Source: Nereocystis luetkeana
Taxonomy: Eukaryota; Sar; Phaeophyceae; Laminariales; Laminariaceae
NCBI GenBank assembly: GCA_031213475.1
Contig: JARUPZ010000025.1
Span: 2,368,077 to 2,432,076 of the forward strand
Length of the DNA stretch: 64,000 nucleotides
Direction of reading: 5' to 3'
Numbering within the stretch: position 1 is the first letter of the stretch; each line of letters starts with the position of its first letter. Under the pieces are notes generated by a model, which saw only the letters and a program-made list of their open reading frames with translations, was not told the DNA's origin and ran no database searches. Positions 1-40,118 of the stretch are shown one piece after another. Made by a program: the position numbers and the translations under genes.

Positions 1-104
1 TGCAGTGCTTGCTGCATACGTGGCTACGTTGTATCTCTGTGGCGTAGCTTTGTGACCACATAACTTGTATCTCTTCTGGGATTGGAGAATCGGCACGGAC
101 ACTG

Positions 105-420
105 AGTAGGTTTAGCAGGTTGGGAGAAGGGATCTTTAGGGATGTTTTTTACTTGAAAAATGTGTAGCGTGGTCTGCACTTCGGAATCGTCGTCCGCAAC
201 TGAGAAATTTCCTGGTTCGATGCAAACTCGGCGCAGCCGCGTTTGTGGCGAGTCTTGGCCCGTTTTGGCTGCGGTTTGGGGTCAGGGTTAGGGTTAGGGT
301 TAGGGTTAGAGTCAGGGGTGGGGTTGGGTCTTCGCCCGTATCTTGATCCCAACAGGAACCAAAACACCCGAAAAGCCTACCATCCTAAAGATCCCTTCTC
401 CCAGATTGTTAAAGGTCCTC
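105..420. mobile_element. Mutator-like MITE with 9-bp target duplication
   Basis: The 316-bp insert is flanked by the direct repeat cggacactg at 96-104 and 421-429. The uninterrupted relative near 52,710 carries this 9-mer once. The ends are imperfect inverted repeats with a core of about 18 bp, gggagaagggatctttag, at 122-139 inverted at 384-401. A 9-bp target duplication with long inverted ends is the hallmark of Mutator-like elements. No transposase fits in 316 bp, so this is a non-autonomous copy. It carries a short telomere-like repeat inside. Confidence 0.8.
283..330. repeat. Telomere-like GGGTTA repeats inside the MITE
   Basis: About four units of GGGTTA, followed by degenerate G-rich variants, lie inside the Mutator-like MITE. 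The array is short and flanked by ordinary sequence, so it is not a chromosome end. Confidence 0.7.
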
Positions 421-479
421 CGGACACTGGTTGTGCTGGATGTCGACGGGTAGAAAGAACGGTTTAATGTGAAGAACAC

Positions 480-1305
480 ACACAGAGGTGATGACTGATG
501 AAGACGTATTTCCGTCGTTTTATCACTTTATTAATCTTGGGAAATATGAAATTGCTCCGCACCACCTTTAAATCTTTTTTTAGCACAAACAAGGGGTGCT
601 GGCGTTCATGTTCAGCAGAGCTGCTGTATGGCTGGACTTTATGTTTATATATATGTTGAAATAAAAGTAGGTACTACCACACCGGTTTGTAGCCGCGAGC
701 TCGCCACTACACACGAGTAGAACAGAGACGACACTGAACTCACGGCGACACCACCACCAGTATATACTGGTGTGGCCCAAAAAGATTTCAGGTGACCTGT
801 CATCAAGCGAGACGCAAAGCGTGCGCTGTCAACGATGTAGGGCCGAGTGTTCCACACTAAACCTAGTGGTTTCGTGTCAGTCAAAATATATATGTATGTG
901 TCATGAGGCAAACTTGCTGTCTGTCAAGGAATAATATTGCTGTCTCTTACCATGTAGCATATTTGGTATGACCGGTACGGACGCCATGGACGTTTATCTC
1001 ACGGGCGGAGTCGATCGATCAGCAACGAGCGGCGCTAGAATCACCTCCGCCGTCGCCACCACCTACGCCACCACCTACCTCCACAATCATCAGAACAGCC
1101 ACCACGAGCTGGCACCGCAACAGAAGAGTACTTGGTGCAGGGGTGGAAAAAAATCCGAAAAAAATGTCGCCCGTGTAGTGGTAGCACTTCTCGGAGCTTG
1201 TGGGCCGCGGGTCGAGCAGAACAACGCCTGCGTCGGGCCGGCTCCCTTCGCGCAATCAGCAGTGCGGGAAAATCTTCACGTACAACCGCGCCGACCTTGC
1301 AGCCG
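480..1305. repeat. Dispersed unit D, copy 1
   Basis: This matches 11,340-12,425 in the same orientation and order: an A/T-rich start, the phrase 'gtgctggcg', a block holding 'atcaagcgagacg', a block holding 'ggtatgaccggtacggacgc', and a block holding 'gtagtggtagcacttctcgg'. Both copies then run into the GTCCCGTCCC minisatellite. A shorter piece lies at 7,210-7,350. The open frames here are not conserved between copies, so I treat the unit as non-coding. Confidence 0.6.
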
Positions 1306-1600
1306 GTGGAAAGAAATTACAGTCACGCCCCGTCGAAGAAAATCAAAATTACCGTCCCTTCCCGCCGAGGGAAAAAATGTTTACCGTCCCGTCCCACCGA
1401 GAAAAACGATAAGAATCGTTCCGCCCCGCTGGAGAAGAAAATAATTACCGTCCCGTCCCTTCGTGAAAATATATCCCGTTGAATTTGACCGTCCCGTCAC
1501 GTCGAGAAATTGTGCACCCGCCGTGCCGTCCCTCCAACTTTTTGAGTCTTCATTTTACTGTCCCGTCCCGTCCCGCCACGATTCTCAGTCACTGTGATAA
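1305..1600. repeat. GTCCCGTCCC minisatellite
   Basis: Degenerate units of about 30-40 bp, built on 'accgtcccgtcccgccgag' followed by an A-rich spacer. The same array follows unit D copy 2 at 12,425-12,870, and a third array lies at 2,520-2,760. Long open frames read through it because the unit lacks stops in one frame. Confidence 0.75.
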
Positions 1601-1604
1601 GCCT

Positions 1605-1990
1605 TGGATTTTTCGTATCGGTGCGGTGCGGTTTGATGCGTTTAGCCGCATCGCAGCGCACCGTAGGATTTTTGCCTCTTGAAAACTGCACCGTAGGTTT
1701 TACGAAATTGAAATATGGAAACCGCGCCGAACCGCACCGTAGGATTTCGAATATAACCGAGAACCGCACCGCAGGGTTCCCGACATCTGAAAACCGAACC
1801 GAACCGCACCGAAGCATTTTTTAAGATATTATAAAACCGCAGAGGGCCGCATCGTAGGAGATATTACAGCACCGAACCGCTCCTTATTGACAACATCTGA
1901 AAAAAGCACCGAACCGCGCCTTAAGATTCCTGACTTATTTGTACCGCAAGGTAGGAATGCGATTGAAGTCGCACCGCACCGTGTACGTCA
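1605..1990. repeat. CGGTGCGGTT minisatellite, array 1
   Basis: Degenerate units of about 25-40 bp around 'aaccgcaccgtaggattt' and its variants. Further arrays of the family lie at 21,085-21,485, 22,085-22,410, 27,285-27,680, 31,610-31,870, 33,240-33,570, 60,850-61,150 and 61,965-62,335, in both orientations. Confidence 0.75.
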
Positions 1991-2519
1991 AGATACGGTG
2001 AAATAAACCGTTATATCGGTTATTTAACGGTACGGTTGTCTTGAAGCAGTAAAAAAAACGCCGTTGCATCGGCCGCGGAACGGTGCAATAGGGTCACGGT
2101 TTCGCACGGCTCATGAAGGTTTCTGCACGGTTTCTTGTCAAAACTGTTCCCGCTGGCTTGGTTGATATTATGGTATTTGATATTTTGAATATTTTTGTGG
2201 TTGAAAACCAAATAAAAAGGTCAAGTATTTGCATACTTCATTGCAGATATAAGTAAGTACCAAATGGACTTTTTTTCCCGGAATAGTTCACTTTTCTCGT
2301 TTGGTCGCGGGTCCTTTCTCTTGTTTCCTGCTGCGTGGCCCGCAAGTGGGCGGCGTGGACAGTACGGTACAACCGTTGGCTCCGGCCGGGCCCCGTGGCC
2401 CATGCATGCTCCACATGGTCAAAGCCACGTGACCCAGCAAGCAACTCAGGGGATGGCGTCCCACTTCCGAAAAGCTATCCTACCCGGATCTTCGTATTTT
2501 CCAAAGCTTATCACGGTAT

Positions 2520-2760
2520 TTCAACGGGGCGGTAACGGCGTGACGGGACGGGACGGTAACACCGCCGTCAAAATGGTCCCGCCGTCCCGTCCCGTCCCGC
2601 CGACAAAATCCCCGACCATCGTCACATACGGTCCCGTCCCGCCGATAAAATATCTCCCGTAGAAAATTACCGTCCCGTCCCGCCGTGACATCGGACAATT
2701 ACCGTCCCGTCCCGCCGTGACATCGAACAGTTACCGTCCCGTCCCGCCGATAAAATCTTT
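2520..2760. repeat. GTCCCGTCCC minisatellite, second array
   Basis: Same unit as at 1,305-1,600 and 12,425-12,870. The first part is in inverse orientation ('acgggacgggacggtaac') and the rest is forward. The sequence from 1,990 to 2,520 shows nothing I can assign. Confidence 0.7.
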
Positions 2761-3292
2761 TCCGCGAAATTATGGCCTCCGGCGGACATAACTTGCCTGT
2801 TTCCCTCCCTGCGAGATACATTCATTCGTGGCCGTCTGTTCCCATCCATTCCCACCACGAATCAAGAAAGTAATGAAATCAAATCGAGTTGTACTAAAAT
2901 TGAGTAGTAATTCTTAAAACCAGGTAACTACCAGGTAATAAATGTTATCATAATTATATAGAACTCCCATACCATTATGAATGAAATACGTATAGAACAG
3001 AAGTAGTACTAGTAATTGGTGGTAATGAGGCACGACCTCGGTAATACCTGCAGTAGTCATATCTGCGATGCATCATGCTGGGCGCATACGGATTATTTTG
3101 TATTGTTGTGCTGAACGAACGAACACGAAGGAATAACTACCACGTACGACTAATGTACTACTACTGTAGTACAGTACGCCGTCGTGGGTGCATCTCAATA
3201 ATTTTCGTAAATAAATGTTCTTGGCCTCTCCTGGCTCTTGATATGAAGAAGTACTGGATTTGGTCGTGTGCATCCTGGTTTCCATCTCGAAC

Positions 3293-4140
3293 TCCGGCAT
3301 AAAAATTTGAAGACGAAATCTGCACTGCTGTACCACAGAACTTGTATCTCTCATCAGGGATTGAGGAATCGGCACGGACACTGCTGTGGTGCTGGATGTC
3401 GATGGGTAGAAAGAGTCAAGAACACACAACACTCGACATGTTTTGTCCAGAAGAGTGTTTTCTGGTTGAAATTCAGCACAATAAAAATCTGCATCTCACA
3501 TGTTTTGTCCAACAGAAAGAGTTTTTTTTTCGCAACAGGTGTCACCACAACTTAAATTGGACTGATGTACGACATCTACAGCAGCAGTGCGCCTCCCATA
3601 CCATAACAGCAGCAGCAGCACCAGTAGTAGCAGTAGGTCACACGAGGCCAGGGTCAGCGTCGCCGTACGCTCGGCTTGTCGGTCTAACCCTTGCACCCTT
3701 TGTACGCGTACATATACACACACGTACTGTAGTACGTACCCTGCACTCGTTTTTTTCATGTTTCCTGCTTCCCACCTCGAAAGTCGGCATAATATTTTCG
3801 AGACGACAACACGAACATGGCATGCCCAACAAGAGCTTCTCGTAGCAGGTGCCACAACTACTGCTGCTGTGCAACATCTACATCATCAGAGCTTCTCCAG
3901 CAGCAAAACAGCAGCAGCAGTAGCAGTAGGATCCACGAGGCCAGGGTCAGCGTCGCAGTACGCTCGACTTCTGCCCTTTGTACACCGTACTCGATGTTGT
4001 GTGTGTGGTTCCTGATTCCACCCTCATAATTTGAAGACGAAATATCCGCAACCTCTGATACGACATACATGTATCCAACAGAGGTTCTTGAGCAGGTGCC
4101 ACCACTACTACTGACTGCTGTACAACTACAGCAGATCTTC
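3293..4140 (+). repeat. ~250-290 bp tandem repeat, three units
   Basis: Three diverged units each hold a 'gcaggtgccac'-like segment, a CAG/GTAGTAG-rich segment, 'cacgaggccagggtcagcgt' (units one and two), and a 'gaagacgaaat' or 'cgagacgaca' segment. The same order is visible in the inverted copy at 29,520-30,360. Confidence 0.55.
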
Positions 4141-4324
4141 TCCTGTTTCTCCGTCCCCTCGTCAGTAGGAGGGTAGCCCTGACAAGATCACTTGCAGCAC
4201 ATGGCTTGAACGTTGCTGTGGACAGACAGGCGAAGTCTGCCTATGACTACTCGTAGTTGGGTTTCGTTAGTTATTACCAGGTACGTACGTAAGTAGAAGA
4301 AAGAGCTAAAAAAATAAAGCCGTC

Positions 4325-4545
4325 TGCCTGCTGCTGTGGACAGGCCCAGTCTGCCTGCTGTTCGGTGCTGCGGACAGGCTCAATCTTCCTGCTGTGGATA
4401 GGCCCAGTCTTCCTGCTGTGGATAGGCCCAGTCTGCCTGCTGTAGACAGGCCCAGTCTGCCTGCTGTGGACAAGCATAGTCTGCCTGCTGTGGGCAGGCA
4501 CAGTGTGCATGCTGTGGACAGGCGCAGTCTGCCTGCTGTTGGCAA
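4325..4545 (+). repeat. 24-bp VNTR, about nine units
   Basis: The unit is close to 'ctgcctgctgtggacaggcc' plus 'cagt' (24 bp). The inverted copy is at 29,120-29,345. Because 24 is a multiple of three, open frames with an eight-residue repeat appear on both strands. They are not evidence of a gene. Confidence 0.85.
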
Positions 4546-4767
4546 AGGCACAAAAACCGTTATGATTTTGTATTTTGAACACGGCCCAGCACAGACGTGC
4601 CTACACACTTTGCCGCACCTAGCTCGACGAACTGTGAACGATTTTCCACCCCACCAGGACGACAAAGTGTCTTGCGTGTCTGTGCGTGCACAGAGCCCGC
4701 CGGGACTGGATTTGGTGGCGTGTGCGTCGAGCACGGTGGTGAAAGGTGGACCAAAAAAATGTTGGAT

Positions 4768-4922
<155 letters not shown>

Positions 4923-5000
4923 AAATCAAAACAGGCACCCTACCCTCGTACCCGAGCCGTTATGAAGAGGCTTTTTTTTTACTTGGTTAAAAACCAGGGT

Positions 5001-5545
5001 ACACACGTGGCCAATCGGCTACCACCAAACACCCTCTGGAGGGCAAGATATATTACCCTTTGGAGGGTGCCCAAAAATGGGCTATACTATCGTGCGGTAA
5101 ATTTTAGGCCCACCACACCGACGTACAGAGTGGTCGGCCGCGCACGCTCTGGAGGCCGACGTCACAACAAAAACCCTCTGGCGGGCAGAATATCTTTCCC
5201 TCTGGAGGGTGACCAAAATTGGGCGATACTACGGTGCGGTAAATTTTAGACCCACCACTCCGACGTACAGAGTGGTCGGCCGCGCACGCTCTGGAGGCCG
5301 GCATCACAGTAGAAACCCTCTGGAGGGCAGAATATCTTTTCCTGTGGAGGGTGCCCAAAATTGGGTGACACTATCGCGCGGCAATTTTCAGACCCACCAC
5401 ATCGACGTACAGAGTTTTCCGGCGCGCACGCTGTGGAGGCTGACGCCACCCCCCAAAACCCTCTGAAGGGTATGCGACCGTACCCGCTGGAGGGTGCCCA
5501 AAAAAGGGCGACCCTACAGTGCAGTCGAAAACGCACCCACCACAC
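5001..5545. repeat. 142-bp satellite built on CCCTCTGGAGGG palindromes
   Basis: About four units. The anchor 'tggagggtg' recurs at 5,061, 5,203, 5,345 and 5,488, a spacing of 142-143 bp. Each unit holds two near-palindromes of the CCCTCTGGAGGG type and a 'gacgtacagagtggtcggcc' block. The array starts with 'acacgtggccaatcggctac', which recurs inverted at the end of the satellite near 11,238. Confidence 0.85.
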
Positions 5546-6003
5546 CGACATCTAGTGGGTTTGTACGGTGAACCGCCACAAGACGCTGACAGTCATACGC
5601 GCCCCCTGTATTTATAGATATGCGGAAACAGTACACATTGTTGCATCGAATATTTTGCTTTATATTATGAATCTACTACATGTTTGCTCAATCCAACTGG
5701 CCCTGTGTGGACAGTTGTTTACACACGATGTCCTATATCTGCCACGCCTTTCGAGACTATTATACGCCATACAAACACCGGTTGCGGGCATGTAATGTAC
5801 AACAATGTGTACAGTATGTCGACCGTGCGGCGTGGTACCCGCCTAACCTACCCCTTGCGTGTCCGTCTGCCTCCTCCCTGCTCAATGCATCTACGTGCAT
5901 ATGCTTCGGGGAAGCCCGTGCCTCTCTTTGACGAGTTCTAAACCAATGCGCCACGATGAGGCAACAGTATAACAACTCCCCACATGTCGTGGTTGAGCGA
6001 GTA
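5546..6003. other. No recognisable feature
   Basis: Mixed-composition sequence. The overlapping frames at 5,680-5,941 on both strands have no family resemblance, so nothing is assigned. Confidence 0.4.
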
Positions 6004-6882
6004 TCATACGTAATTCACAAATATTAGTAACCCCCCTGTCTTGAGCTTTCGCCGACAAACAATTCCAATATAGGCAGCAGCCAGACACAGAGATGTGGAT
6101 ATTGAAATTCCCAGCATGAACTGGCCAGAATACAAAAACGAAGACGGTATCATCATTCGAACACAAGAGGGGGCATCACATTGTGGCAACCTGTGTGAGC
6201 TAAACACGCGCTTTGAACAAAACACACCCTGCGGGCACTGCAACGGAACAGAGATGGCGCAGCCACTACACATGGGTCAGGGACATCCCAACAAAATTAC
6301 TCACACCTGCCACCATCGAGCACGGGAAAACAACGAATATGAACGCAATCCAATAGATAGAAAACAGACATGCCCTGATGCTCTGATCCCCCCCTCCCCC
6401 CGACTAATCAGAATCCTAGTAATCATCCACGACTGTTCAGGCGCCAGCCGCCTCACCCCCTTCCCCCCTCCTTGTCGTCTATGGCTGAAAGGCCGTAACC
6501 TACACAATAAGAGTCTTCGTCCATGGCAGGTTATCCCCGCGAGTGGAGGTTTCTTCGACCAGGCCCCGGTGATCGTCATCGCAACAGCTGTCTTGGCTAT
6601 AGCCCTCGCCATCGCTACTCCTCCTGCCTGTGGATTCCTCTGAATTTCCTCCGTGTCGTCGACGGGGCCACTCTGACTTCTATGAGCTCTTGTTTTCAAC
6701 CTGCCGTCGCCGTCGGTTGATGGCTGTGGCTCATCGTCATCGGTTCTACCTGAAATATGGTACGTGGGCCGGGCCGAATATGTGCGAGTGCAATCAAGAG
6801 TACATAGTCGACGTTTGGGAGAATGCAACGGAATTGAGTTGGGTCGTCGCAACTTCAATAACTGGCACGGTATAGTTCTCAA
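6004..6882 (-). CDS. Possible decayed or spliced gene, unknown product
   Basis: Two minus-strand open frames lie next to each other. The downstream one (6,004-6,273) ends with a plausible single membrane helix (core FMLGISISTSLCLAAAYIGI) followed by basic residues. The upstream one (6,301-6,882, 193 codons) has an acidic, Ser/Thr-rich middle and a basic end. They could be exons of one gene, but I cannot show splice sites that join them, and overlapping plus-strand frames of similar length exist. No family recognised. The locus lies inside the palindrome-satellite block. Confidence 0.2.
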
Positions 6883-7767
6883 ATGGGATGCGGAAAATCC
6901 TGGCCGACCTCTAGCTACGTAGCTTTATCTACGTGGTACATATTTCAAAAAGGGCTGTGACCAAAATCAGGTACGTATACCTGGCGATTTTTGGGCCAAA
7001 ATCAGTTACATACAAAAACCAAGTACAAAACGCGAGGCACAATCGGCGTTTAGCCCATGGAGATCTATATAAAAACACCTGCGCCTCAACATATATAGCG
7101 TGTGGCCTCCCAAATCTGAATTATTTCGTTTTATTTAGGTTATAGGTTATAGAAAACAACAGAGTACACATCATAACAACTGAAGTACATCGTACACCGA
7201 AGATATCAGGAGTAAAACGTGCGCTGTCAAGGATGTAGGGCCGATGTTCCAAACTAAAACCTAACAGGTACTGTACCACAGTAGTTTGGTGTCAGTCGAG
7301 GCATGTCGAGGCAAAGTTGCTGTCCGTCAAGGGGTGAAAATGCGGTCTCCTGACATACTTGCCGTACACCCCAAAGAAGGAAAAACGGAATCACCGTGCG
7401 ACATGTATGCATAAATACGTACGTACTACTGGTACGTACAAGCACAGAGCGTTCGAGTGTACGCACGAATGTGTACTTAAGTACGAGTTTCTACACAAGA
7501 ATTGTGCAACCGATGGACCACACACGCATACGCGGAGAAAAAACTGTGTACGTATGGCCCCTATCATTGGTTCAAAATAGGCCCAAATCAGTTGAACGTT
7601 GAAAGCTAGACAGAGTACTTGTAGATAAATCGGGTAAACCCTCGACCAATTCGAACCAAAATCAGTGACGATGTCAGTCTGGCCAATAGCAGGGCTCCTG
7701 GCGTGTGTTTTGAACTTGTTCCTGGTATAATTGATTTTGGCCTAAAAATGACCAGGTATACCTGATT

Positions 7768-8410
7768 TTGGCTAAAACTCTTTCTAAAACAAGTTCCAAC
7801 AGTGGTCAACTGCTTGTACAGCAGCGGTGGCGACATGCACTCACCGAGGAGATAAGGGCAGAGACAGAGGCAGAAAGTTGCCACGGCGTCCGCCTCTTCG
7901 CCGATGTAGGTTGCACGTCTGTTTGGAAGGTTGAACGCAAGCCGGCCTTTCCTGAAAGCGAACAGACGCAGCATCTGCCACACCAAAAAAAATACCTGGT
8001 ACACAATACGGATAGCATTCAGCGTAAGAAGGATGCAAAACAACCACAAGAACATGTTTACGTCGATGAGGTGTTTGGCACTCTCGACGCCGACATGGCC
8101 ATCGGGATAAACCGCCTGCAGATAATCACTCCCCAACTGCACGCTACAGGGGTAGCGCTATGCGGTTGAACTGCTGTATGTAGTTGAAAAACCTTTAATG
8201 GGCGAGACAGAAAAGTAGAGTATCCGTGGCAGAAGTCTACCAGACAAATCCAGCAGTACAACAGCACAGCAGTACCCGTAGGACTGAGACACAGAGAAAT
8301 CCCACGAACGTCCAAGGCTCTTCAGTGCACGTAGCTTCAAAACGGCTGTATGTGTAGCAGATAGCATTGGAGTTGTTGTAGATCTGCATGGCCTATTATA
8401 CACACATGGC
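7768..8410 (-). CDS. Possible membrane protein exons
   Basis: The minus-strand frame from 8,155 down to about 7,790 reads like a protein. An acidic/polar lead is followed by a hydrophobic stretch, MFLWLFCILLTLNAIRIVYQ, then basic residues, an acidic loop and a Cys-rich hydrophobic segment. It has no ATG near its 5' edge, and an in-frame TAG lies just upstream, so it would have to be an internal exon; 'ctacccctgtag' is a possible acceptor. A second open frame upstream (8,158-8,410) also has a hydrophobic core. The family is not recognised. The alternative is chance open frames. Confidence 0.28.
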
Positions 8411-8469
8411 ACCAAATGAGACCAGGATGCCAGGTGGGCGTTCGGCGGTTCCTGCGGAGGGTTGATCAT

Positions 8470-9110
8470 ATTTCTGCGCTTCCAAGCGGGAGTAGGGTGT
8501 CAAATGGGATGGGTCAAATGACCAAATGGGAAAATACAAGGTGATGTAACATATACGTGCCAAGCTACTGCTGAAAAAAAAAAAGTTAACCCTTTTAGAA
8601 CCGCAGTCCCGTTTTGGGGACAAACCACTCAAATTTCAAGTTTGCACGTACGTAAATTTTTCTCCGCTGGTGGCTGGAGAGTACCAGGATGTACGTACGT
8701 GAAAAAAATCAAAGTTCAAAATTCAAAAATGCAGCCCGTTTGGGTTTTTTAATGGATGCCGTGGAGCATGAAAAACTCGTACAACATGTATTTCTGAACC
8801 TCCAAGTGGGAGCCGGGTGTCGAATGGGGTGGGCCCACTGCGGGGTCAAAGTACCAAATAAATGGGCAAACACCAGGTGATGCCTAACATACGTATCATA
8901 CAAACAAACGTACTGCACAAAAAATCTCCGCTTGTGGATGTAGAGTACAGCAGTACCAGGATGGATGTACACATATACGTACCAGGTGCGTAATACTCGT
9001 ACGAAAAAAAGATGCTCGAAGTTCAAAATTCGAAATGCAGCCCGTTGGGTCTTTAAATTTATGCCGTGGGGTAAAAAAAAAACTTGTACAACAGGTACAC
9101 CAGCAGGGCA
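8470..9110 (+). repeat. ~310-bp tandem duplication
   Basis: Two diverged units follow each other. Each holds a 'gggtgtc' plus 'aatggg' segment, a 'caggtgatg' or 'aaggtgatg' segment, a 'gtaccaggatg' segment and 'gttcaaaattc' with 'atgcagcccgtt'. No gene is supported in either unit. Confidence 0.65.
8586..8640 (+). mobile_element. Half of a short TIR element (TTAACCCTTTTAG family)
   Basis: The stretch 'ttaacccttttagaaccgca' and the following 'gtcccgttttggggacaa' match the left arm of the ~105-bp element inside the LINE at 49,918-50,022. The right arm is not present here. Confidence 0.5.
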
Positions 9111-9251
9111 TCACAAAATGAAGAGCGCAGCAGTGATCTACTTGCTGCTGTGGGTCTAACAAGAGGGATAGAATTAGGTGGCGAGAAGGAAATCTGGTAG
9201 CATCGCTCCGATTGGCTAGGAGAGCTATCACTGATCAGACGTACAAAAAGC

Positions 9252-9941
9252 GTGACCCCCTTGTACGATACCACAGCCGCAGTATCACGAGTAGTAATAG
9301 TTGAGACAGGGGGACCCACTGCTGTATATATCACGCGGTCCACTCCAAGCTATGATGTGTTGCCCACCCACAAGGAAAGTAGCATTCGAGTACTCTCACC
9401 TTGGGATAGCTGCCATCAACGCTGTCGCTGGTCGTCTAGTCCATGGAGAGAGCTGTCCTCTCCAGCTCTCCAGTCTCGTCCATTTCGAAAAAGGCTTCTG
9501 TTTTGGAGGGACGCTCGCGTACTGTACCTGGTACCTGGTAGTTGTATTTCAAATTGTCGGCCTAGGTGCCCCTCCACGCCCTCACCCACAGCGTTTCGAC
9601 TCAATGATTTCACATGCTCAGAGCTACGAGTATATGCGATGGGAATGTGTATATCGCCTGTAATCGCTTGCTGCGAGTGCTGCCATCGGCAAGAGCTGTG
9701 GCGTGCAGCGTGTGGCTTCAACGGACTGGCGGTTTTTGAGGGTTTCGAAATGCTTGTGAAGCTTGTTTTCATAGGGGTTGAAGTAACGTATTTTGAAGAA
9801 AAAAAAACTGGCCGCTGGATACAGGCTGCCGCTGTGCAGCGGTATGTGTGTATGTGCGGTCTGGACCCGGGGCGTATAGTACGCGACATGTGTCGAGAAT
9901 CAAGTAGTCAAGAATTCAGGCTGAAATATTTCGAGATATAA
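9252..9941 (+). CDS. Open frame of 229 codons, unknown
   Basis: A stop-free frame with no ATG near its start. It has a Cys-rich middle and an ordinary-looking C-terminal third. A 120-codon frame overlaps on the same strand and a 157-codon frame on the other, so coding is not established. It lies inside the palindrome-satellite block. No family recognised. Confidence 0.15.
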   Translation: MTPLYDTTAAVSRVVIVETGGPTAVYITRSTPSYDVLPTHKESSIRVLSPWDSCHQRCRWSSSPWRELSSPALQSRPFRKRLLFWRDARVLYLVPGSCISNCRPRCPSTPSPTAFRLNDFTCSELRVYAMGMCISPVIACCECCHRQELWRAACGFNGLAVFEGFEMLVKLVFIGVEVTYFEEKKTGRWIQAAAVQRYVCMCGLDPGRIVRDMCRESSSQEFRLKYFEI

Positions 9942-9996
9942 GGAATCGCAGCGAAGGGTTTGTGCTCAGGCAGAAACGCCATTCTATAGGCTGTCT

Positions 9997-10254
9997 ATGC
10001 TCGATGTTCGCATCACAATTCGCGAGCCTTGGCCAGAAAAGGATCGCGTTGTTACTGGTGTATACGCCACGGCCACCCCATGTCCTGTAATGCTCAATTC
10101 GCAAGCGCCGGAGGGTTCGTCAAGCAAGACACTGGGAGGTAATTTGGATAATTTCCGTCCAAAGAAAGGCTCGAGCAAGCCACGAATCACTCAAGGGAGG
10201 GCAGGTGCAGCCAGCCTCACACGCGTGCGCAATCTCAATGCCTCTGGTGGGTAG
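9997..10254 (+). CDS. Small open frame of 85 codons, unknown
   Basis: Opens with ATG and ends just before the 230-bp satellite. The product would be basic and Gly/Ser-rich toward the end. It is not recognised and may be chance. A 68-codon frame overlaps on the other strand. Confidence 0.15.
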   Translation: MLDVRITIREPWPEKDRVVTGVYATATPCPVMLNSQAPEGSSSKTLGGNLDNFRPKKGSSKPRITQGRAGAASLTRVRNLNASGG

Positions 10255-10299
10255 CATGTTGTTCCACCTTCAGCGGGTGCAATGTCAATGTGCCTCCAG

Positions 10300-11238
10300 A
10301 GGCTGCCCATTCTCATAGACCTCCACCGGAGCAACTATTTCCCACGGCGCTCCAGAGCGAACGGCACGCAAACACTCTAGAGGCTAGCATTTAGTAGAGA
10401 CCTCCAGCCGTCGCATCAGAAAAGAGCTCCCTCTACAGGGGCGAAACCCTAAACAATCGCCAACGCGCTCTGGAGGGTGAAATGCCGACCCCCCTCCAGA
10501 GTTTTCAATATAAACCCCTCTAGAGGGTTGAAACGGTCATTACCCTCCTCCGGAACAAACCTGCCGCACGGCCCTCCAGCGGTATATACACAGCCCACTC
10601 TAGAGGCTAGCATTTAGTAGAGACCTCCAGCCGTCGCATCAGAAAAGAGCTCCCTCTAGAGGGGCGAAACCTCATACCCTAGACAATCGCCAACGCGCTC
10701 TGGAGGGTGAAATGCCGACCCCCCTCCAGAGTTTTCAATATAAACCTCTCTAGAGGGTTGAAACGGTCATTACCCTCCTCCGGAACAAACCTGCCGCACG
10801 GCCCTCCAGCGGTATATACACAGCCCACTCTAGAGGCTAGCATTTAGTAGAGACCTCCAGCCGTCGCATCAGAAAAGAGCTCCCTCTAGAGGGGCGAAAA
10901 TTCAAACCCTAGACAATGGCCAACGCGCTCTGGAGGGTGAAATGCCGACCCCCCTCCAGAGTTTTCAATACAAACCCCTCTAGAGGGTTGAAATGGCCAT
11001 TGCCCTCCTCCGGAACAAACCTGCCGCACGGCCCTCCAGCGGTATATAGACAGCCCACTCTAGAGGCTAGCGCACATGACAAGCCTGTACAGGGTACCAA
11101 TGGAAACAAAATCCCTCTAGAGGGCGAAAGGCCTGACCCTCCAAGCCTCAAACACCCTCTGGAGGGTGGCCACGCCCTCTGGAGGGTCAAATTGTTCCCT
11201 GGAGGGTTTTTGGGGGTAGCCGATTGGCCACGTGTGTA
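10300..11238. repeat. ~230-bp satellite built on CCCTCTAGAGGG palindromes
   Basis: Three near-identical units, with 'cactctagaggctagc' at 10,373, 10,596, 10,826 and 11,056 (spacing 223, 230, 230), and diverged flanking units. Each unit has several CTCTAGAG or CTCTGGAG palindromes. The array ends at 11,238 in the inverse of the sequence that starts the 142-bp satellite at 5,001. The 123-codon and 93-codon open frames here are repeat translations. Confidence 0.9.
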
Positions 11239-11530
11239 TAGAACAGCAGTAAGTAGTATTAATGGTATAGGCGTGTTACGCAGCTAGCAAAATTGAAACT
11301 GAAGTGTACCAACTATAATACCAGTCGAAGTCATACCTAGCTCATTATGTCTGATGCCGGCGTATTTTCGTAGTTTCATCATTCTAATTTTGGAATATAT
11401 TAAATTGCTCCACAACATATTTAGTTTTTTTTTTAGAACAAAAGGTGCTGGCGCTGATGATCAGCAGCTATACTTTATTTTTCGTACGTTGAAATGAAAG
11501 TAAGTGCTGCCTGCCACAGCAGTATACCTG

Positions 11531-11531
<1 letters not shown>

Positions 11532-11577
<46 letters not shown>
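11532..11577. repeat. (GT)22 tract at the tail of a LINE fragment
   Basis: About 44 bp of GT directly abuts the inverted LINE 3' end (11,577-11,745). On the minus strand this reads as LINE end followed by an AC tail, the same arrangement as at the other LINE copies. Confidence 0.85.
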
Positions 11578-11578
<1 letters not shown>

Positions 11579-11745
11579 CTGTGTGTGTTCTTCACATTAA
11601 ACCGTTCTTTCTACCCGTCGACATCCAGCACAACCAGTGTCCGTGCCGATTCTCCAATCCTAGGAGAGATACAAGTTCTGTGGTCACAAAGCTACGCCTC
11701 AGGGATTCTACGTTGCCACGTGTGCAGTATGCACTGCAGCCTGCT
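11577..11745 (-). mobile_element. LINE 3'-end fragment
   Basis: The reverse complement matches the end of the LINE at 52,600-52,775, including the 'ggtagaaagaacggttta' core and the AC-rich end. It is 5'-truncated and non-coding. Confidence 0.7.
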
Positions 11746-12424
11746 GTGGTGTGGCCCAAAAATATGTCAGGTGACATATGTCATCAAGCGAGACGAAAAT
11801 CGTGCGCTGTCAACTGATCCTGCTGTGGTGTGGCCAAAAAAGATGTCAGATAGATGACATGTCATCAAGCGAGACGAAAATCGTCCGCTGTCAACTGTCA
11901 ACGATGTAGGCCGAGTGTTCCCCACTAAACCTAGTAGTTTTGGTGTCAGTCAAAGCATATATATATGAGTCACAAGGCAAAGTTGCTGTCGGCCCAGGTA
12001 TAAAAATGCTGTCTTCTAGAATCTTGGTATGACCGGTACGGACGCCATGATGGGTGCCTATCTCACGGGCGGGGTCGATCGACCAGCAGCGAGCGGCACT
12101 AAAATCACCGCCGCCGCCGCCGCGGCCAACACCTCCACCACCACGTATCTCCACCTACCTACCTGCACACAGCCACCAGTAACACAGCGCAAGCACAAAA
12201 ATCATCAGAACAACCACCATGATCATTGAGCTGGCACCGCAACAAAAGTACTTTGAGCTTGGGGCAGGGATGGGAAGAAATCAGAAAAAAACGTCGCCCG
12301 TGTAGTGGTAGCACTTCTCGGAGCTTGTGGGCCTCGGTTCGAGAAGAAAAACGTCTGCGTCGGGCCGGCTCCCTTCGCGCAACCAGCAGTGCGGGAAAGT
12401 CTTCACGAACAACCGCGCCGACCT

Positions 12425-12870
12425 GTTATATTTACCGTCCCGTTCAGCCGGGGAAAACATATTTGCCGTCCATCCCCGTCGAAGAAAAATAAAATTACCG
12501 TCCCGTCCCGCCGTGGGGGAAAATATTTACCGTCCCGCCCCGCCGAGGGGAAAAATATTTACCGTCCCGTCCCACCGAGGGACAAAATATTTACCGTCCC
12601 TTCCCGCTGAGGGGAAAAATATTTACCGTCCCGTCCCGCCGAGGGAAAAAATAATTAACGTCCCGTCCCGCCGGAAGAAAAAAAAAATACCGTCCCGTCC
12701 CGTCTTGAAAATCTGTCCCGTGGTATTTTACCGTCCCGTCCCGTCGAGAATTGTGGACCCGCGGTCACGTCCAGACCCGTCCTGCCAACTATTATGTCTT
12801 CATTTTACCGCCCCGTCCCGTCCCTCTATCATTTTTTCCTCCGACAAACAAGAAAAATCTGTCCCGTCCC
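12425..12870. repeat. GTCCCGTCCC minisatellite, third array
   Basis: About 12 units, each with 'accgtcccgtcccgccgag' or a variant plus an A-rich spacer. It carries a 391-codon open frame that is only the array translated. Confidence 0.85.
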
Positions 12871-12959
12871 GTCCCGCCACGATTCTCAGTCACTGTGATA
12901 AGCTTTGGTATTTTCAGCTGCAAAGATTGTGTTTTTCTAGCTTTTTGGTGCAACTGCAA

Positions 12960-13640
12960 CTACAGCACACAGCAGTGCTGCTCGAGTTCGCAACAGCAAC
13001 AACAGGCGTACGAGTGCTGCTCAAGTCGAGTGTTGCTCCAATGCCGCTGGGTGCTGAGTGCTCGTGTACCCGTGACTGCTTGGCCCCAAGACATGACAAC
13101 ACGCTGTATCCACCACGTACATGGGATTGTTTTTTTAGTATCTCGGTGCGATTCATCTTTTTTTATCGGATCTTTGTATGTAATACCATGTACAAGGTAC
13201 CAGGTATTGCCTTGCGTGTTACTCGTACAATGTCGAGCTCAATCGTGCTCGAGCAGTACGCAGCAGCAAAACAACGGCAACAACAGGCGTACGAGTGCTG
13301 CTCTAGTCGAGTGTTGCTCCAGGGCCGCTGGGTGCTGCTGTTGCTGCTGCCGCTGAGTGCCCGTGTGCCCGTCATTGCTTCGCCACGCCGTGCTCGTGTT
13401 TGTCTCGTGCTCGTTGCGCTTGAGCAGGCGAATGATCGTGGTCCCAGGTCCTTTGTTTTGCGGTGCAATTGGCTTGACACCTACTCATGCTCGTGCGCTT
13501 GAGTCCCGCTCGAGCAGTACGCAGCTGTACAAGAACAGCAACAACAGGCGTACGCGTGCTGCTCGAATCGAGCGTTGCTCGAGTGCTGCTGGATGTTGTT
13601 GTTGTTGCTGCTGCTGCTGCTGCTGCCGCGGAGTGCTCTG
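12960..13640 (+). repeat. ~260-280 bp CAG/CTG-rich tandem repeat, three units
   Basis: 'caacaacaggcgtacg' recurs near 12,998, 13,279 and 13,540, each time followed by 'gtgctgctc' and 'gttgctc' blocks. A (CTG)n run in the third unit (13,600-13,625) is absent from the first. Chance Gln/Cys/Leu-rich open frames follow from this composition. Confidence 0.7.
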
Positions 13641-13989
13641 CTTGGACACAATACGCGAGAACACGCTGTATCCACCACGTCACCAAAGCGTCGGCCGGTA
13701 GCCCGTCCCTCACTGCCGACACATACCGTACACGTTGCTAGAGACCACGTACTACTGTATGCCCTAACGACGCTGTGGCCGTGCACTCAAATGGCGGTCG
13801 ACGGTGAGAAATTATGTGCCGGCGCAAGCCTCGAGGCCGGCGCCAACGCGTCGGCCCTTGGCCCGTCCCTCACTAACGATACAACCATCAATGCCGCAGT
13901 AGTACACAATGAACGACGTATGGTAGTGTTTTTCTAGGTTTCTCGGTGCGAATAATATTTTGTCGGATCTTCTAACCACGTATTGTATT

Positions 13990-14335
13990 GTTTTTTTTTT
14001 TGTTTTTTTTCTATCCCATTCATTATCTTCGCACATCTTCTTCTCTCTCTCCTTCCAACTCGTAACTCAGATCCGGGGTCACATAGCAGGCTCTTCTCCC
14101 CCCTTCCCGCTACGGTACGTGCCTTCATTTTTTATCGCGAGAAGATTTCAGCCTTTTCTTCCCTCGTCGACTCGCATCGAATTGTGCCTACCCACGCTGC
14201 AAGGCGCTCTCAACAATTGAATCCCATTTTTTATTTTTGCAAATAAAGTCAAAGTCCGACCCTCCTAGGGCTCGAACCCAGGACTCAAACAAGTAGAATT
14301 CGAGGTTAACCACTTGAACCACCGGGGCGACCGGC
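13990..14335 (-). mobile_element. tRNA-derived SINE, family A
   Basis: On the minus strand the element begins with a tRNA-like head carrying an A box (tggttcaagtgg) and a B box (gggttcgagcc). A body follows with 'cgatgcgagtcgacgaggga' and 'gtgaccccggatctgagtta'. The end is 'aatgggat' plus an A-rich tail, seen here as a T run at 13,990-14,010. It matches 46,388-46,738 and 52,864-53,219 along its length. It has no coding capacity, so mobility would depend on a LINE. Confidence 0.85.
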
Positions 14336-14460
14336 TTACAGTATAGCGTTGTGTGTTATATATTATTATTGTAGCCGAGTGTTTACTGCCTTTTGTACAA
14401 TGTGCGCGTGCGACGCGGTTTGGTAAAAATCCTGATAACACTACGGTTGTTGCTGCCGCT

Positions 14461-14535
14461 ACTACTACTACTTACTACTGTACTACTCCTACTACGAGTA
14501 CTACTACTACTACTACTACTAAAAAAAAAAATGCG
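14461..14535 (+). repeat. TAC/ACT triplet tract followed by poly(A)
   Basis: Imperfect 'tactac' runs followed by 11 A residues. Confidence 0.85.
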
Positions 14536-14699
14536 GTTTATCTGCTATTATTACTACTGCTGTTGTTGGCACAGGTTGCTGTTCCTGCTGCTACCCTTAC
14601 TTTATTTTTGCCCGTTCCACGCAATTGCTTGTATTATTGCTGCTCCTGTTGTTGCTATTAATAATCATGCTGAAACAATTGTGAAGTATCCAGCTTTTA

Positions 14700-15440
14700 C
14701 AGATCCACCGGAGCATACAGACATCCTGCAGGTCATACAGATCATCCAAATCGTACAGACGGTATCCCGGTTAATATGTACAGATCATTCAGATAACACA
14801 GATTCCACCATAGATCATGCAGATCGTGCAAACCCTATCTCGCTAAAGATGTACAGATCGGACAGATCCCATCCCGGTCAAACTGTACTGATTGTACAGC
14901 TCACACGTATTCCACTCAGATACACACATCTAGGAAAATTGTAATCAGACAGATTCCCACCCAGTTAAACATTATTAGCATGTCATTGAGATAAACCAGA
15001 TCCCACCTGGCATACAAGTGGAAAGGATACGAAACATACCTGTCTCTCCAGGCAAAGTACAAGTTGGAGCTTGTAGATAATCGATCATGCAGATTCTCGG
15101 CATCATGCACACATACATGGCTTTCAGATTATCCCACCTTGCACGCAGGTGCAATGATAAAGACCAAGCAGATCTGACCGCCAAAGAAATAAGTGATACA
15201 TCTACATTTAATAGACCCTGCGGATCGTACAGATCCTTCGGATCATGCGGGCCCACCCACGCAAAGCTATTCATCAGTTACTTAATCACGGCACATGTAT
15301 GTTCGATTAGGGTTAGGGTTAGGTTCATGCAGGTCGTGCAGACCCCACCCAGTACAGGTGTGTTCAGATAATCAATAAGGATCACCTATCCTAAATCGAT
15401 GATACAGATCTCACCCAGGCGATAATTACCTGGATGATGC
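14700..15440 (+). repeat. Degenerate CAGATC-rich tract
   Basis: 'acagatc', 'cagatcat' and 'catgcag' recur every 15-30 bases with no fixed period. A short GGTTAG tract lies at 15,307-15,323. No gene is supported. Confidence 0.5.
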
Positions 15441-17850
15441 ACACCCCTTCAATTACGGGGCTACGCTTTCCTTTAACCAATACAGTAGTCCATGTCTCCT
15501 ACCAGGTATGCGCCAAGACATGCGAGAGCATCGTTGACTAGACCACTCCTCTTCGCTTTTAGCAACAGATCAGTAGACCATGACTCAGTTTTCTCCGAGA
15601 TCAGTTTTATTCAAAACAGAGGTGCAAGGATTTTACCTGCTTATTCTCCCTTTTCAACTTGCGACACCCCCCGGATTTCATGCCACCCACATCCCAAAGG
15701 GGAACCTTGTATTATTATGTATCAGTCTCCGGAAGTACACCTGCCTGAAAATTTGAAATCACAAGTTGCCGACCTGCGAAGTATGTTGTCGTTGACTGTT
15801 CCTTATGAGCGAACAGGGCCCAGGTACAAACTGCTAATTTGATGCTGCTCATGGCAGCTCGTAACATTAAATATTCTCGGTACATAAAACCGTAGTAGTA
15901 GTAGGAGGGTTCGTAAATACTTACTATGTGTCTACGTACGTTTATCAAATTTTCGTAATTTTCCCAATTTTTCTCTTCGTACCAGCACTTTTCGGCAAAA
16001 CACCAAGTATTCGGGCACATCAAGCCCGGCCGGACACATTGGTCCAAGTATCTGCGCGATCCGTACACTCTGGAGCACGTGGCAGGCGCTTGAAGTTTTT
16101 TTCCGGCGGGAGTGGATAAGACGATTTCCCTGGTTTCAGCACGAGAGACCTTATTTTGTCCGTACCTATAGGTAAATTGTTGTCCAGGTCTATGTCTGTT
16201 TACCTCACACCAGGTACAACATAATCACAGATAGATCCCATCGTTCCAACGCTGCCGCCCACACGCCGTGAGTATGCGACACACCCATATGGGCAGTTTT
16301 GCTGAGGCACGTTGTGTTTGTTGGAGCCTGCCGTCCGTATTTCACCATCTGCCTGCCCAGGTACCAGATTTGTTTTTCATACTTTTTCACGTGCAAACCC
16401 AGGCTGGCGTACCTGTATCATCACCTCTCTCCTTGCTGCTTCTTCTGCGTATTATTCCTGTGTGTGATCCAACAATGCCACTGCTCCAGCTGTGCTCGGC
16501 GCAGTACGCCAACTGCAGGAACAGGCAGCATACTATGCGCATACGGCAGATGCGCGCTGCACTCTCAGTGCTACAGCAGTAATGTTTGTTGTTGTCGTCG
16601 GCATTGGCCTATCTATGCATATACATACCCGCAGCTGCTGCTATGATGAGTGTGACCGGCTTTTTTTGCTCCATACCGATCATCTCTGGATCGTGTGCAT
16701 TCACAAGGAATCGGTCGTACGAGCATGGTGTCCAGCGGCATTCGTACGAAACTACGTACAGTAGTTACTGTCCTACACTGCTGACCGATAGGTCCTTGCG
16801 CCAGTTGAAAGAGCACAGCGGCGGTACACGTCCCTTTGTTTCAGTACGCGTATCGTCTGCTGCCGTATCTTATAACCCGGTATTTTACAGCAGTAGCAAA
16901 GCAGTACCGCTGTACATACATACATGCAGTTGTACCTGCACAAGCTACTCTAAACGTTGCTCGGGTCTTGTATTTTTACATTTTTACTTATTTCGTACCA
17001 GTGCATCCACCTCTCTCCTCCGACCTACCTGGTACCTGGTATTATACATATTAATATTTATGCGTACGTACGAGGTATGATTCAATATGATAATAAACGA
17101 GTTGTTGTGTGTGTTTTGTGCCAGGAAGACCGCGGAGTTTGGGCGCGCTTTCACGTGTGGCGTGCGTACATACCTCAATCTTTCACAGTTGCTCCCATCA
17201 CTTGGGACTGAAAGAAAGTATGCTCGAGAAAACACTGTACGTACTTCGTACACTCGCAGCATTTCGGGTTTGTACTGCTGCATGCAGCAGATAAGATACT
17301 GCGAGTGTTTTTTTTATGTATCTCGGGGTTCTGTACTGATGCGGGTACTGCAAGTATACTTGAAGTATTTCGTCGGTTGGTTCGTACGTCGAGTACTCGA
17401 AGTACCAAAATACTCTCGATATTTTAAGTGATACTTAAGAGTATGACCCTATACTTCGACCGTCTGCGCACCGTGTCGACAATTATCAGGCCCATTGTTC
17501 GCCACAAATTACTCGTAGATGGTCCGACGAGTGGGAGTTGGAGCAAATTACTCACGCTGGCGACAAGTCGAATACTTTGAGCACTGGCAGTATTTCGGGA
17601 ATATGTACTGTGAGGAATACGTACTGCGAGTATACTCTCAGTATCTCGAAGTTATGTTTTTTTACCCTGAGCGCGAAGAAAGAAAAAACTGCGGGAATAT
17701 ACTGTGTATGTGCTGGATTTTACTCAGCCGGTCACAACGTATCATGTCTCAACCTCGACCTCGCGCACCTTTTTTGTACGTACGTTTAGGGCGCAAGCAT
17801 TGGACTGATCGCCGCGTCACATCGGCTTAGGTTCAATATCCATTCCCCCG
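15440..17850. other. 2.4 kb without a supported gene
   Basis: Several 60-160 codon frames overlap on both strands without family resemblance. The stretch 17,230-17,700 has degenerate repeats of 'tactgcgagtatac' and 'agtatttcg'. Nothing further is assigned. Confidence 0.4.
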
Positions 17851-18239
17851 TGTACCCTATTTTATGTTGTTGTAGCAATAATGATCCCACACTATTGCCA
17901 CAAAGAGCGGTGCATGGTCTGTCTTCAGAAATCCGTGCGTGTGTTCTTCACCTTATTAATAATGGTGGGTGGACGCAGTTACGGTATGTAGTTCTAAACA
18001 GACAGGTGTGCAGGTATTGCAAACGATGGCGAGTATTTTTCTTGCGCCACTCCCCTAGGCACGTCCCGGAGGGGAAGCTCGTATGTATAATACCAAGTAT
18101 CATACTTGTAATACTGCTGTTGTTTGTGTGCTCCAGGGACATGTTCATAAGTGAGCACAAGGGGGGAGGGGGGGTAGTGGCCTCTGTGACTGCTTTCTTG
18201 GTTATCCGCAGGAAGATAAACACTCGGTGCTCTGTATAG
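17850..18239 (+). CDS. Open frame with one possible membrane helix, unknown
   Basis: A 129-codon frame without an early ATG. The middle has a hydrophobic run, KLVCIIPSIILVILLLFVCS, followed by a Gly-rich patch and a basic end. It could be an exon or chance. No family recognised. Confidence 0.2.
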   Translation: MYPILCCCSNNDPTLLPQRAVHGLSSEIRACVLHLINNGGWTQLRYVVLNRQVCRYCKRWRVFFLRHSPRHVPEGKLVCIIPSIILVILLLFVCSRDMFISEHKGGGGVVASVTAFLVIRRKINTRCSV

Positions 18240-18469
18240 TACCTGGTGTAGTATAGAGTAAGATGCTGGCGTGTGTTACACGTAGATCTACTATGGAAGA
18301 TGGCAATGCGCCACATTTAGCGTCACGTCGCTACTCAATCTGAAGCGTGCACATTACCGGTATAATATATATTGTGCCGGCACGCATCGTGCAATTTATG
18401 TTTTCATTTTATTTACTCCTTATTTCTCAATATTTTACATTACTTTTTTATCGTTGAATCCGTTTTGTT

Positions 18470-18720
18470 CATGTGTTCGTGCTGTTGCTCTCTTGACTTT
18501 GCCTGGAAAGTATAAAGGAAACAAGATGGAGGAAACCGCACGAATCCGAGGGCTTGTACGGTTTATTCATACGCTGCCTGTAGCGGTTTCGTGTGTAGTG
18601 CGTTGTTAGTGGCCCAAGAAAAAGCGTCAAAAACCGTACAAAATCGCTGTTTTGTACCTGGTACGGTTTATTCAGACGGTGCACCGTAGAAAAACAGCAG
18701 TTAGTTGCGTTACTAGACAT
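18470..18720 (-). repeat. Fragment of the composite repeat CE
   Basis: Matches the palindrome-rich central part of CE (27,690-27,890), in inverse orientation and degenerate. Confidence 0.5.
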
Positions 18721-18852
18721 ATATATTATATGAAACTCACGAATATCGCGATATTTTACTTTTTTTAGAGCCAATTATGTGCCTCTCGAGTTTTAGATGA
18801 ACGTCGGGTATAGGCGATCATTATCGCGATACGTGGTCCGCAACACACGAAA

Positions 18853-18884
18853 ATATGCTTGGGGTGTTTTCACCCCAAGCATAT
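18853..18884. other. Perfect 14-bp hairpin with TTTT loop
   Basis: Arms atatgcttggggtg and caccccaagcatat around a four-base loop. No T run follows. It could be a short structured RNA or the remains of an inverted insertion. Confidence 0.8.
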
Positions 18885-18990
18885 ACCTGTGTTCTCTTTT
18901 TGTTGGTAGAGCCGAATTCGGCTGACAAAATTGGAAACAGCCTGTCCCCTCGACTAGGTCATCCGATCATGACCTTGCCAGCAGCAAGGA

Positions 18991-19382
18991 CTACAACAAC
19001 AGCAAGCAGTGGCCGCCACGACTTTTGGTTGAATGAGTACGGCAGTATGGCAGACGGGTGCTCCCTTGGTCGGGCAAGGGCGAATGCCCGGGATGGCCGG
19101 GATCACCGCACCAGCACATCATCCAGTAATCCGGCTGGGCGTCTTTCTGCCGGCGCTGCCCCAAACCCACAGGCCCCCAACACACGCCACGCCCCACCTT
19201 ATCCGGGAACAACAACCGGGTAGCGCCAACCAGGTATTTCGTTGCTGGCGGACACGGCTCAGCACGAGCACGAGGCGCGTCCGCTCTGCGGCCTCGTCTA
19301 TGGCAACAGCCAAGTGGTTTACGCGGGCGCTGTAGCCTGCCGAGCTACCAAGAGAAGCAGCAGCAACAGCTACGTCCTCCAC
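18991..19382 (-). CDS. Possible gag-like remnant
   Basis: Two overlapping minus-strand frames. One contains MMCWCGDPGHPGH, which resembles a retroelement zinc knuckle (Cys-x-Cys, GH, second H) but lacks the standard spacing and final Cys. The other has an ordinary helical-looking stretch. A decayed gag or nucleic-acid-binding exon is possible. Plus-strand frames overlap. Weak. Confidence 0.2.
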
Positions 19383-19740
19383 CCCATCCCATGCTGTATC
19401 CTCCGTGTTTGTTGGTGGACTTGCTGACGACTATTCATTTCACCCATGTTTTACATCACGTTCTACGGGCAAAAAAGCATATATAATATAGAGTTTTATG
19501 CCAAGGGATTTGCTTTTTCGAAATTCGCGACCTTCAATTCGGCGCATAGAGTCGAAATATCACCCTCTCTTGAGTTTTTTATATGTCTACTAGACCTATG
19601 CTAATGGAAACGCGAAGTTCAAAAGTTATTTTTCAAATATATCGCTGTCAAAAAACAGCCGAAAAAATTCTCGTGCCGCCTCTCCTTCTTCTGTGGGAAA
19701 AAAAGAGAAAAATGTTTGATTTCTTCTCTTTTTTCCCCCC

Positions 19741-19984
19741 AACCGTTACGGCTGCAGGCGGCGCAATTTGTGTTTTTCTGGTCGCAAATTGTCAACACGG
19801 TGATCGAAACCAGCTCGTGCCACGATCGACGCTCGATGTCGACATAGACTCAGCCCACGGCCAACCTACTCAGTATCTGGCAAGCCCAACGAATATAGAT
19901 GACGGCCTCGATAATATCAGGTGGATTCCTGGTCTAGGGGCCGAGAGCTTGCCGGCGGCGTCCTACGGTATCCTCCCAAATTGA
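19741..19984 (+). CDS. Protein-like exon cut short by a TIR element
   Basis: The frame reads like a real protein from about 19,760 to 19,980, with an acidic stretch (residues such as TLDVDIDSAHG). Its stop codon TGA is created by the first bases of the TIR element at 19,981. A pyrimidine-rich run ending 'acggctgcag' just inside the frame could be a splice acceptor. A second protein-like frame resumes on the far side of the element (20,384-20,526). The family is not recognised. Confidence 0.35.
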
Positions 19985-20383
19985 ACAGACAAATCTGAAA
20001 AATGGGAACGAAACAAAAAATGAGAACGGACGTTTTTTTTTAGAAAGCAAACCAATTGTGTACAACTCTTAGAAAAAAAGTTGACAGTCCTGTGGGGCTG
20101 TACAGCAGCCTTCGAATGAGCTGTCGCTCAGGCTGGAAGTCCTCAGCATCGCCGCGGTAGCCAGCATCTAGAGAAATCACAATAAATAGAGCCAGCGTAT
20201 ATCGCTTTTTGCGCCCACCCGAAGGAACGAGATGGAGCATGACCGTTCTGACGAGCTCCTCTCACAGGGCTGGCCAAAGGGTTTCGCAGGATCATTTTGG
20301 TTATCTGATACACCACATGGTTCTGGAGACGGCTTGGTTCTCATTTTAGGCTTCGTTCCCATTTTTCCGATTTGTCTGTTCAA
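19981..20383 (-). mobile_element. TIR element T, full copy (403 bp)
   Basis: Inverted ends of about 30 bp, 'gaacagacaaatctgaaaaa' and the following 'tgggaacgaa', with one mismatch between the two ends. The same element lies inverted at 55,353-55,750 and as a partial copy at 60,015-60,157. A frame of about 45 codons ending HNWFAF is conserved between this copy and the 55 kb copy, but this one appears to carry a frameshift upstream of it. No transposase motif, so probably non-autonomous. I could not define the target duplication. Confidence 0.7.
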
Positions 20384-22410: not shown

Positions 22411-22534
22411 GTGCCATGAAATCCTATGCCACGCCAAGAGAGGCCGTGGAGATGCCGTGGGTATGCCATGGGTGATCCTTGGCCATACCTCGAAATAATC
22501 AAATACCTGGTAGTGTGGAACCCTGGCAGCAGTG

Positions 22535-24089: not shown

Positions 24090-24098
24090 ACGTTGCAG

Positions 24099-40115: not shown

Positions 40116-40118
40116 ACT

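Follow-up and report, generated by a model that had tools for sequence, protein, structure and literature searches.

A transposon family of the Nereocystis luetkeana genome with dyad arrays at both ends, probably non-autonomous and CACTA/EnSpm-like in architecture

The 64,000-nucleotide stretch of the Nereocystis luetkeana genome analysed here (the window; C25:2368077-2432076 in an assembly of 465,085,209 bases on 1,987 contigs) contains a 6,235-bp block on the forward strand, at window positions 5002..11236, that is a transposon – one of roughly 100 copies, with inverted ends, a 2-bp target duplication and an empty site. In the window copy the duplicated target is TA, at 5000..5001 on the left and 11237..11238 on the right. 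Terminal inverted repeats of 35 bp (CACACGTGG...) lie immediately inside, the left one at 5002..5036 on the forward strand, beginning CACACGTGGCCAATCGGCTACC and delimited by comparison of the arms and by genome matches, and the right one at 11202..11236 on the reverse strand. The ends are of the CA..TG type, with CACAC as their terminal letters. Next to them stand a left subterminal array with a 142-bp unit (5023..5591; its fourth unit is only 63% alike) and a right subterminal array (10240..11206), both given on the forward strand and both built around a single 12-bp dyad, CCCTCTRGAGGG. Between the arrays is an interior (5602..10190) with no coding signal and no dyad site within two mismatches.

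The ends of the element are sharply defined. An outer 20-mer occurs exactly at 5003-5022 (+) and 11216-11235 (-), and two such matches arose in none of 100 shuffles of the window, even with three mismatches allowed. The inverted arms at 5000-5036 and 11202-11238 are 37 nt long and 95% complementary, with the outer 24 positions identical; an earlier note on this DNA, which described a 24-bp end at 5,001 recurring inverted at 11,238, thus had its coordinates right. The outer TA of these arms is the target duplication, which leaves 5002-5036 and 11202-11236 as the inverted repeat proper. The inward satellites of the same note, with periods of 142 and 230 bp, were likewise recovered, as tandem repeats at 5026-5511 on the left and 10373-11071 on the right, where the 230-bp higher-order repeat occupies 10373..11135 on the forward strand (to 11071 by TRF, Tandem Repeats Finder, and to 11135 by a repeat finder). 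We also agree that the two satellites are otherwise different, as the arms share little past the ends but the dyad motif.

This architecture bears on a Foldback/Galileo-type element, defined by long, internally repetitive inverted repeats. The ends described here are internally repetitive, and in the available text of PMC3688188 the long inverted repeats of Galileo hold several transposase-binding sites. However, the arms are inverted copies of each other over only about 35 bp, with the motif as their one further likeness, and no long inverted repeat was found. The label “foldback-type” given in the earlier note is therefore dropped, and we regard such an element as highly improbable.

Dyad sites are strongly concentrated in the two arms. 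Allowing two mismatches, the window has 39 matches to CCCTCTRGAGGG, of which the left arm holds 10 and the right arm 25; the stretch between the arms has none, and 4 lie outside the element. By chance, 50 Markov sequences averaged 3.96 per 64 kb. When centres of half-sites and whole sites are counted together, the right arm has 33 in 1,039 bp and 23 of the 32 gaps between them measure 24-30 bp; the 230-bp unit is therefore a higher-order repeat of sites about 26 bp apart. The 11 centres of the left arm follow a 24/89/29-bp rhythm, and the density in the interior is 2.2 per kb. Folding of the left arm was better than in 20 shuffles (z -3.1), a score that we give no weight because palindromic repeats fold by construction. 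The interior also contains an inverted repeat at 6934-7031 and 7707-7798, about 75% complementary and with repeated CCAAAATCA / TGATTTTGG motifs, that is perhaps an older nested insertion.

The same ends recur throughout the genome. A search with the 24-base end, allowing up to three mismatches, returned 102 forward and 100 reverse matches (0 and 0 for the reversed control), many of them in convergent pairs about 6.3 kb apart. Exact 22-bp ends numbered 160, with TA preceding 62 and other flank dinucleotides at 63 + 35. We paired neighbouring convergent ends lying 5-7.5 kb apart, blind to their flanks (n=60), and found the same dinucleotide on both sides in 55 pairs, while in 10,000 shuffles of the right flanks the matches averaged 15.2 and never exceeded 27. 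The left flanks of the 60 pairs were TA (26), CA (9), AA (7), TG (6), TT (5), TC (2), AT (2), AG (2) and CC (1) – a preference for TA, then CA/TG and AA/TT. An earlier pairing (63 pairs, 59 matching) was set aside, as its partners had been chosen by dinucleotides and at least one pair, on C1 (25.5 kb), was wrong.

Matching flanks other than TA were present in 30 of the 60 pairs, that is, in 30 of the 34 with a non-TA left flank. The TA beside the window copy is therefore a duplicated target and lies outside the element. Taken by itself, that TA could indicate a Tc1/mariner element, as could the TA at 26 of the 60 left flanks. To our knowledge Tc1/mariner inserts only at TA, and with half of the pairs showing matching duplications of another dinucleotide we consider this identity extremely unlikely.

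Individual copies are alike over their whole length. We fetched 20 copies, picked from pairs already showing matching flanks (the blind 60-pair test being the fair one); they measure 5,820-6,567 bp, and all 20 have both 22-bp ends, equal flanking dinucleotides and both arrays. Mean pairwise identity is 97.5% among the window copy and 19 of the 20 fetched copies, with several pairs at 99% and the best at 99.4%; the copy left out, L011, is divergent, with a mean identity of 87.6% to the remaining copies. A probe from the interior yielded 104 first-look candidates in the genome, and all 40 that were scored, the window copy included, were at least 97% identical. Another locus, L003, is an internally deleted derivative of the element.

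The dinucleotide-based pairing left 34 ends unpaired, some of them only through its rule. Two of these run into the same element and one is the internally deleted derivative L003; the other 31 were sampled 0.5-1.5 kb inward, where 21 run into the same element, 5 do so partly and 5 do not. The five that do not are short, divergent or truncated ends: two on C33 (L066) stop matching the element after about 165 bp, a further two, on C6 and C7 (L067 and L068), have divergent left arms, and one on C10 (L069) runs into TTAGGG repeats. An end that is widespread without satellites, which the earlier note named as evidence against its reading, is thus for the most part not what the genome contains. At L069 (C10:12400300-12404500) the element breaks off after about 160 bp and directly adjoins about 3.7 kb of TTAGGG repeats that form the end of the contig, as would be seen if a new telomere had healed a broken chromosome. 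Outside this genome, neither a 21-mer of the end, the paired palindrome nor a 19-mer of the left unit matched anything in viral_contigs, and a 20-mer of the end had no match in genome_contigs. Two 16-mer matches in viral_contigs had no exact palindrome and no similarity past 17 bases, and were taken as chance.

An empty site was identified for one copy. This copy, L026 (C1:1122792, duplication TG), is inserted in a repeat that is also present in the window. When its flanks are joined with one TG kept, they match window 28869-29485 at 87% of 620 positions, with no gap where the flanks meet, and they likewise align to window 4777-4165; judging by this alignment, the window match is an empty site. 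Joined flanks of L013 and L020 gave partial matches and the remaining ones none. The window holds a 1.7-kb inverted repeat at 3259-4996 and 28754-30400 (88% over the main part), itself enclosed by a second inverted pair at 1943-2203 and 31407-31682 (77%). The window element starts 5 bp beyond the inner edge of the left 1.7-kb copy, and L026 is inserted in the same repeat elsewhere. ARAGORN called a tRNA-His at 29259-29335, inside a 24-bp tandem repeat, which is probably false.

Later insertions have in turn interrupted some copies; one such insertion is a retrotransposon with 302-bp direct repeats that are 99.7% identical. The interrupted copies retain matching duplications. On C16, two outer pairs spanning 12.6-12.7 kb have matching dinucleotides and enclose inner pairs with matching dinucleotides of their own; by their coordinates, these are apparently copies inside copies. 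The interval C16:5682842-5748929 contains 14 exact family ends within 66 kb and apparently includes such nested copies.

We used the copies to ask how the dyads vary. Each of 21 copies has 10-11 left sites, the right arm has 14-31 sites per copy, and the interior has none in 20 copies and one in the remaining copy. With dyad sites set on the window copy and variation counted from 19 other copies, 44 of 414 columns in dyad sites were variable. Elsewhere in the arms 195 columns out of 1,116 varied (p 0.0009), and in the interior 671 out of 4,590 (p 0.028). When the site positions were displaced by 14 or 18 bp in either direction, 15.5-21.7% of columns varied, compared to 10.6% at the true sites, and the lower variation at dyads persisted without CpG columns and also without all CG/TG/CA. 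The dyads look selected; their low variation supports, short of proof, predicted binding by a protein.

The interior shows little sign of coding. No Pfam match at E 1 was found in six frames of the window copy, read with X at stops. The interior could nevertheless have a hidden function beyond that of passenger DNA, through a non-coding RNA or a gene split into short exons. Consistent with such a function, nearly all of the interior is kept in the fetched copies except L011, with small gaps or inserts in some, and the longest interior frame, 246 aa, exceeds that in 299 of 300 shuffles, which speaks for coding. But two of 11 other blocks of the window have a longer frame, and neither the lengths nor the number of interior frames stand out from those blocks. 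Among 20 copies, codon rhythm at variable positions is absent (sliding windows gave an uncorrected p of 0.047 at lowest), indels frequently disrupt the reading frame and frames of at least 150 aa differ between copies, while recent amplification alone explains the identity of the copies. We therefore think a hidden function very unlikely. The membrane-protein-like frames that had been noticed in the interior are best taken as chance frames, being of unexceptional length for the window, without a Pfam match and not kept among copies.

Searches for a transposase were likewise negative. None was found in the window copy by PHROGs (three of six frames) or by phmmer against PDB sequences (two of six frames), which gave two weak matches to polyglutamine-binding protein 1 at E about 0.6. 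In six frames of window 1-5003, 11240-26241 and 38001-47002, Pfam at E 0.1 returned nothing besides a weak Zip match on a CA repeat, and it returned nothing at E 0.1 in parts of the divergent or truncated ends (four of six frames for L067, three for L066 and two for L068). For an EnSpm-type transposase, PF02992 and PF18759 had no match in the genome, but neither matched in any of 14 control genomes, so this negative does not establish absence. Two candidates for an autonomous element were set aside: one of 13 kb proved to consist of the element and a retrotransposon whose frames, on inspection by eye, are those of Copia, and in one of 24 kb the two outer parts match the element, with at least two interruptions between. 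An autonomous partner may still exist.

Taken together, these results identify a mobile unit, as the earlier note had proposed, and its alternative, a structured chromosomal domain, is contradicted by the recurrence of the block as an insertion on many contigs. The inverted ends, target duplication, dispersed copies and empty site are those of a non-autonomous terminal-inverted-repeat element, as is the lack of a transposase gene inside (from Pfam in six frames of the window copy, and from the absence of coding signal and of shared long frames in 20 copies). Arrays of a short motif in both subterminal regions are in turn a mark of CACTA/EnSpm elements. We consider it likely, with good confidence, that this is a large non-autonomous cut-and-paste DNA transposon that is CACTA/EnSpm-like in architecture and working, and we claim no membership of that superfamily. 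A transposase supplied in trans by another element would cut at the inverted ends with a 2-bp stagger, and the same or an accessory protein would bind the dyads, by analogy with TNPA-like proteins on CACTA subterminal repeats. The dyad field would then be a multi-site handle, in which many sites per end may give a short motif specificity in a large genome and may also mark left from right. In Galileo, according to the available text of PMC3688188, the repetitive ends contain several demonstrated transposase-binding sites, for which a role in specificity within a large genome has been proposed.

Several observations weigh against this interpretation. The ends begin CACAC, where those of CACTA elements begin CACTA or, in some, CACTG. 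The flanks differ in 5 of the 60 blind pairs (on C1, C3, C20, C21 and C38). Among 21 sets of joined flanks, searched against the window and the fetched loci, a full-length match over the junction was obtained just once, and that one empty site sits in the 24-bp tandem repeat, so its register is less certain than it would be in single-copy DNA. Array homogenisation could also lower variation at the dyads, which were defined on the window copy; the length of the longest interior frame has been noted above, and neither a transposase nor an autonomous partner was found in the searches described. Finally, the duplication is 2 bp, while that of CACTA elements is 3 bp in the available text of PMC8978399.

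The 2-bp duplication could instead point to a non-autonomous element of another superfamily, such as a relative of ISL2EU/PHIS; in the available portion of PMC12730594, Harbinger-related (PHIS) duplications are 0, 2 or 3 bp. CACTA elements are the better match for dense subterminal arrays of a 12-bp motif and for CA..TG ends, and we judge such a relative unlikely. A further unlikely alternative is a lineage of DNA transposons that belongs to no named superfamily and whose main handle for the transposition machinery would be iteron-like 12-bp dyads about 26 bp apart, in a field grown by satellite-like amplification of units on one side and nearly fixed on the other. We file the CACTA/EnSpm-like element as a new non-autonomous family of a known kind, its superfamily being unproven without a transposase.

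The family illustrates how sites that probably bind a protein can expand, within the end of a transposon, into higher-order repeats resembling satellites, with 10-11 sites on the left and 14-31 on the right. Close copies with different numbers of sites represent a natural series for how many sites an end needs. The element also accounts for two local “satellites” that could otherwise be annotated as tandem repeats in their own right.

Other candidate mobile sequences are visible in the window. A second dispersed family rich in the motif CCGAACCGCACC / GGTGCGGTTCGG occupies 1.6-2.2, 20.8-22.4, 27.2-28.0, 31.4-31.9 and 60.8-62.3 kb; the motif has opposite orientations at possible left and right ends, and the family may be another transposon with subterminal arrays. 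The sequence TTAACCCTTTTAG occurs at 8586 and 49920, with similar sequence after both and, by eye, a hairpin-like partner near one; we take these sites to resemble piggyBac-type ends. A LINE-type reverse transcriptase fragment at 50035-50913 adjoins a 1.9-kb inverted duplication (50925-52773 and 55815-57647, 86%), and no relatives of the window's reverse transcriptase were found in viral_contigs.

Comparison with known systems shows that the earlier note went too far in knowing of no named family with such a layout: many 12-bp subterminal motifs behind short inverted ends are a CACTA layout in the available text of PMC8978399 and PMC2613891. A literature search for the motif and the end strings returned nothing related, judging by titles and abstracts. 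In the texts cited, Jozin of Chenopodium has a 12-bp motif in 19-23 copies spread over its two ends (PMC8978399), and En-1 has a 12-bp motif and TNPA recognises the Spm/En subterminal repeats (PMC2613891). Jozin and En/Spm are both plant CACTA elements with 12-bp subterminal motifs, and Jozin shares with the Nereocystis element short inverted ends and then a motif common to both ends. The Nereocystis element differs in having a near-perfect dyad as its motif, set within higher-order repeats of 142 and 230 bp, and in its 35-bp CACAC ends, 2-bp duplication and lack of a detected transposase. Tgmt*, a soybean CACTA element, is similar in having asymmetric ends whose subterminal repeats, 4 in 159 bp at one end and 24 in 732 bp at the other, can form palindromes (PMC2613891, in the part available), but it is 20.5 kb long and has a transposase gene, 13-bp CACTA ends and a 3-bp duplication.

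Further likenesses are found in the wider CMCT clade, whose ends are CA..TG in most cases, whose duplications are 2-5 bp and whose transposase is defined by C(2)C and H(3-4)H motifs (PMC12730594). The CA..TG ends and 2-bp duplication of the Nereocystis element agree with the clade. ESTA, in contrast, has TA duplications and a RAG1-like transposase, unlike an element whose matching duplications are so often not TA. The giant EnSpm/KDZ elements of Ectocarpus resemble it in being large, in their nested insertions and in that several have no transposase gene and are presumably moved in trans (PMC12477816), but they are generally longer than 10 kb and carry genes, whereas the Nereocystis element is about 6.3 kb and has no coding signal.

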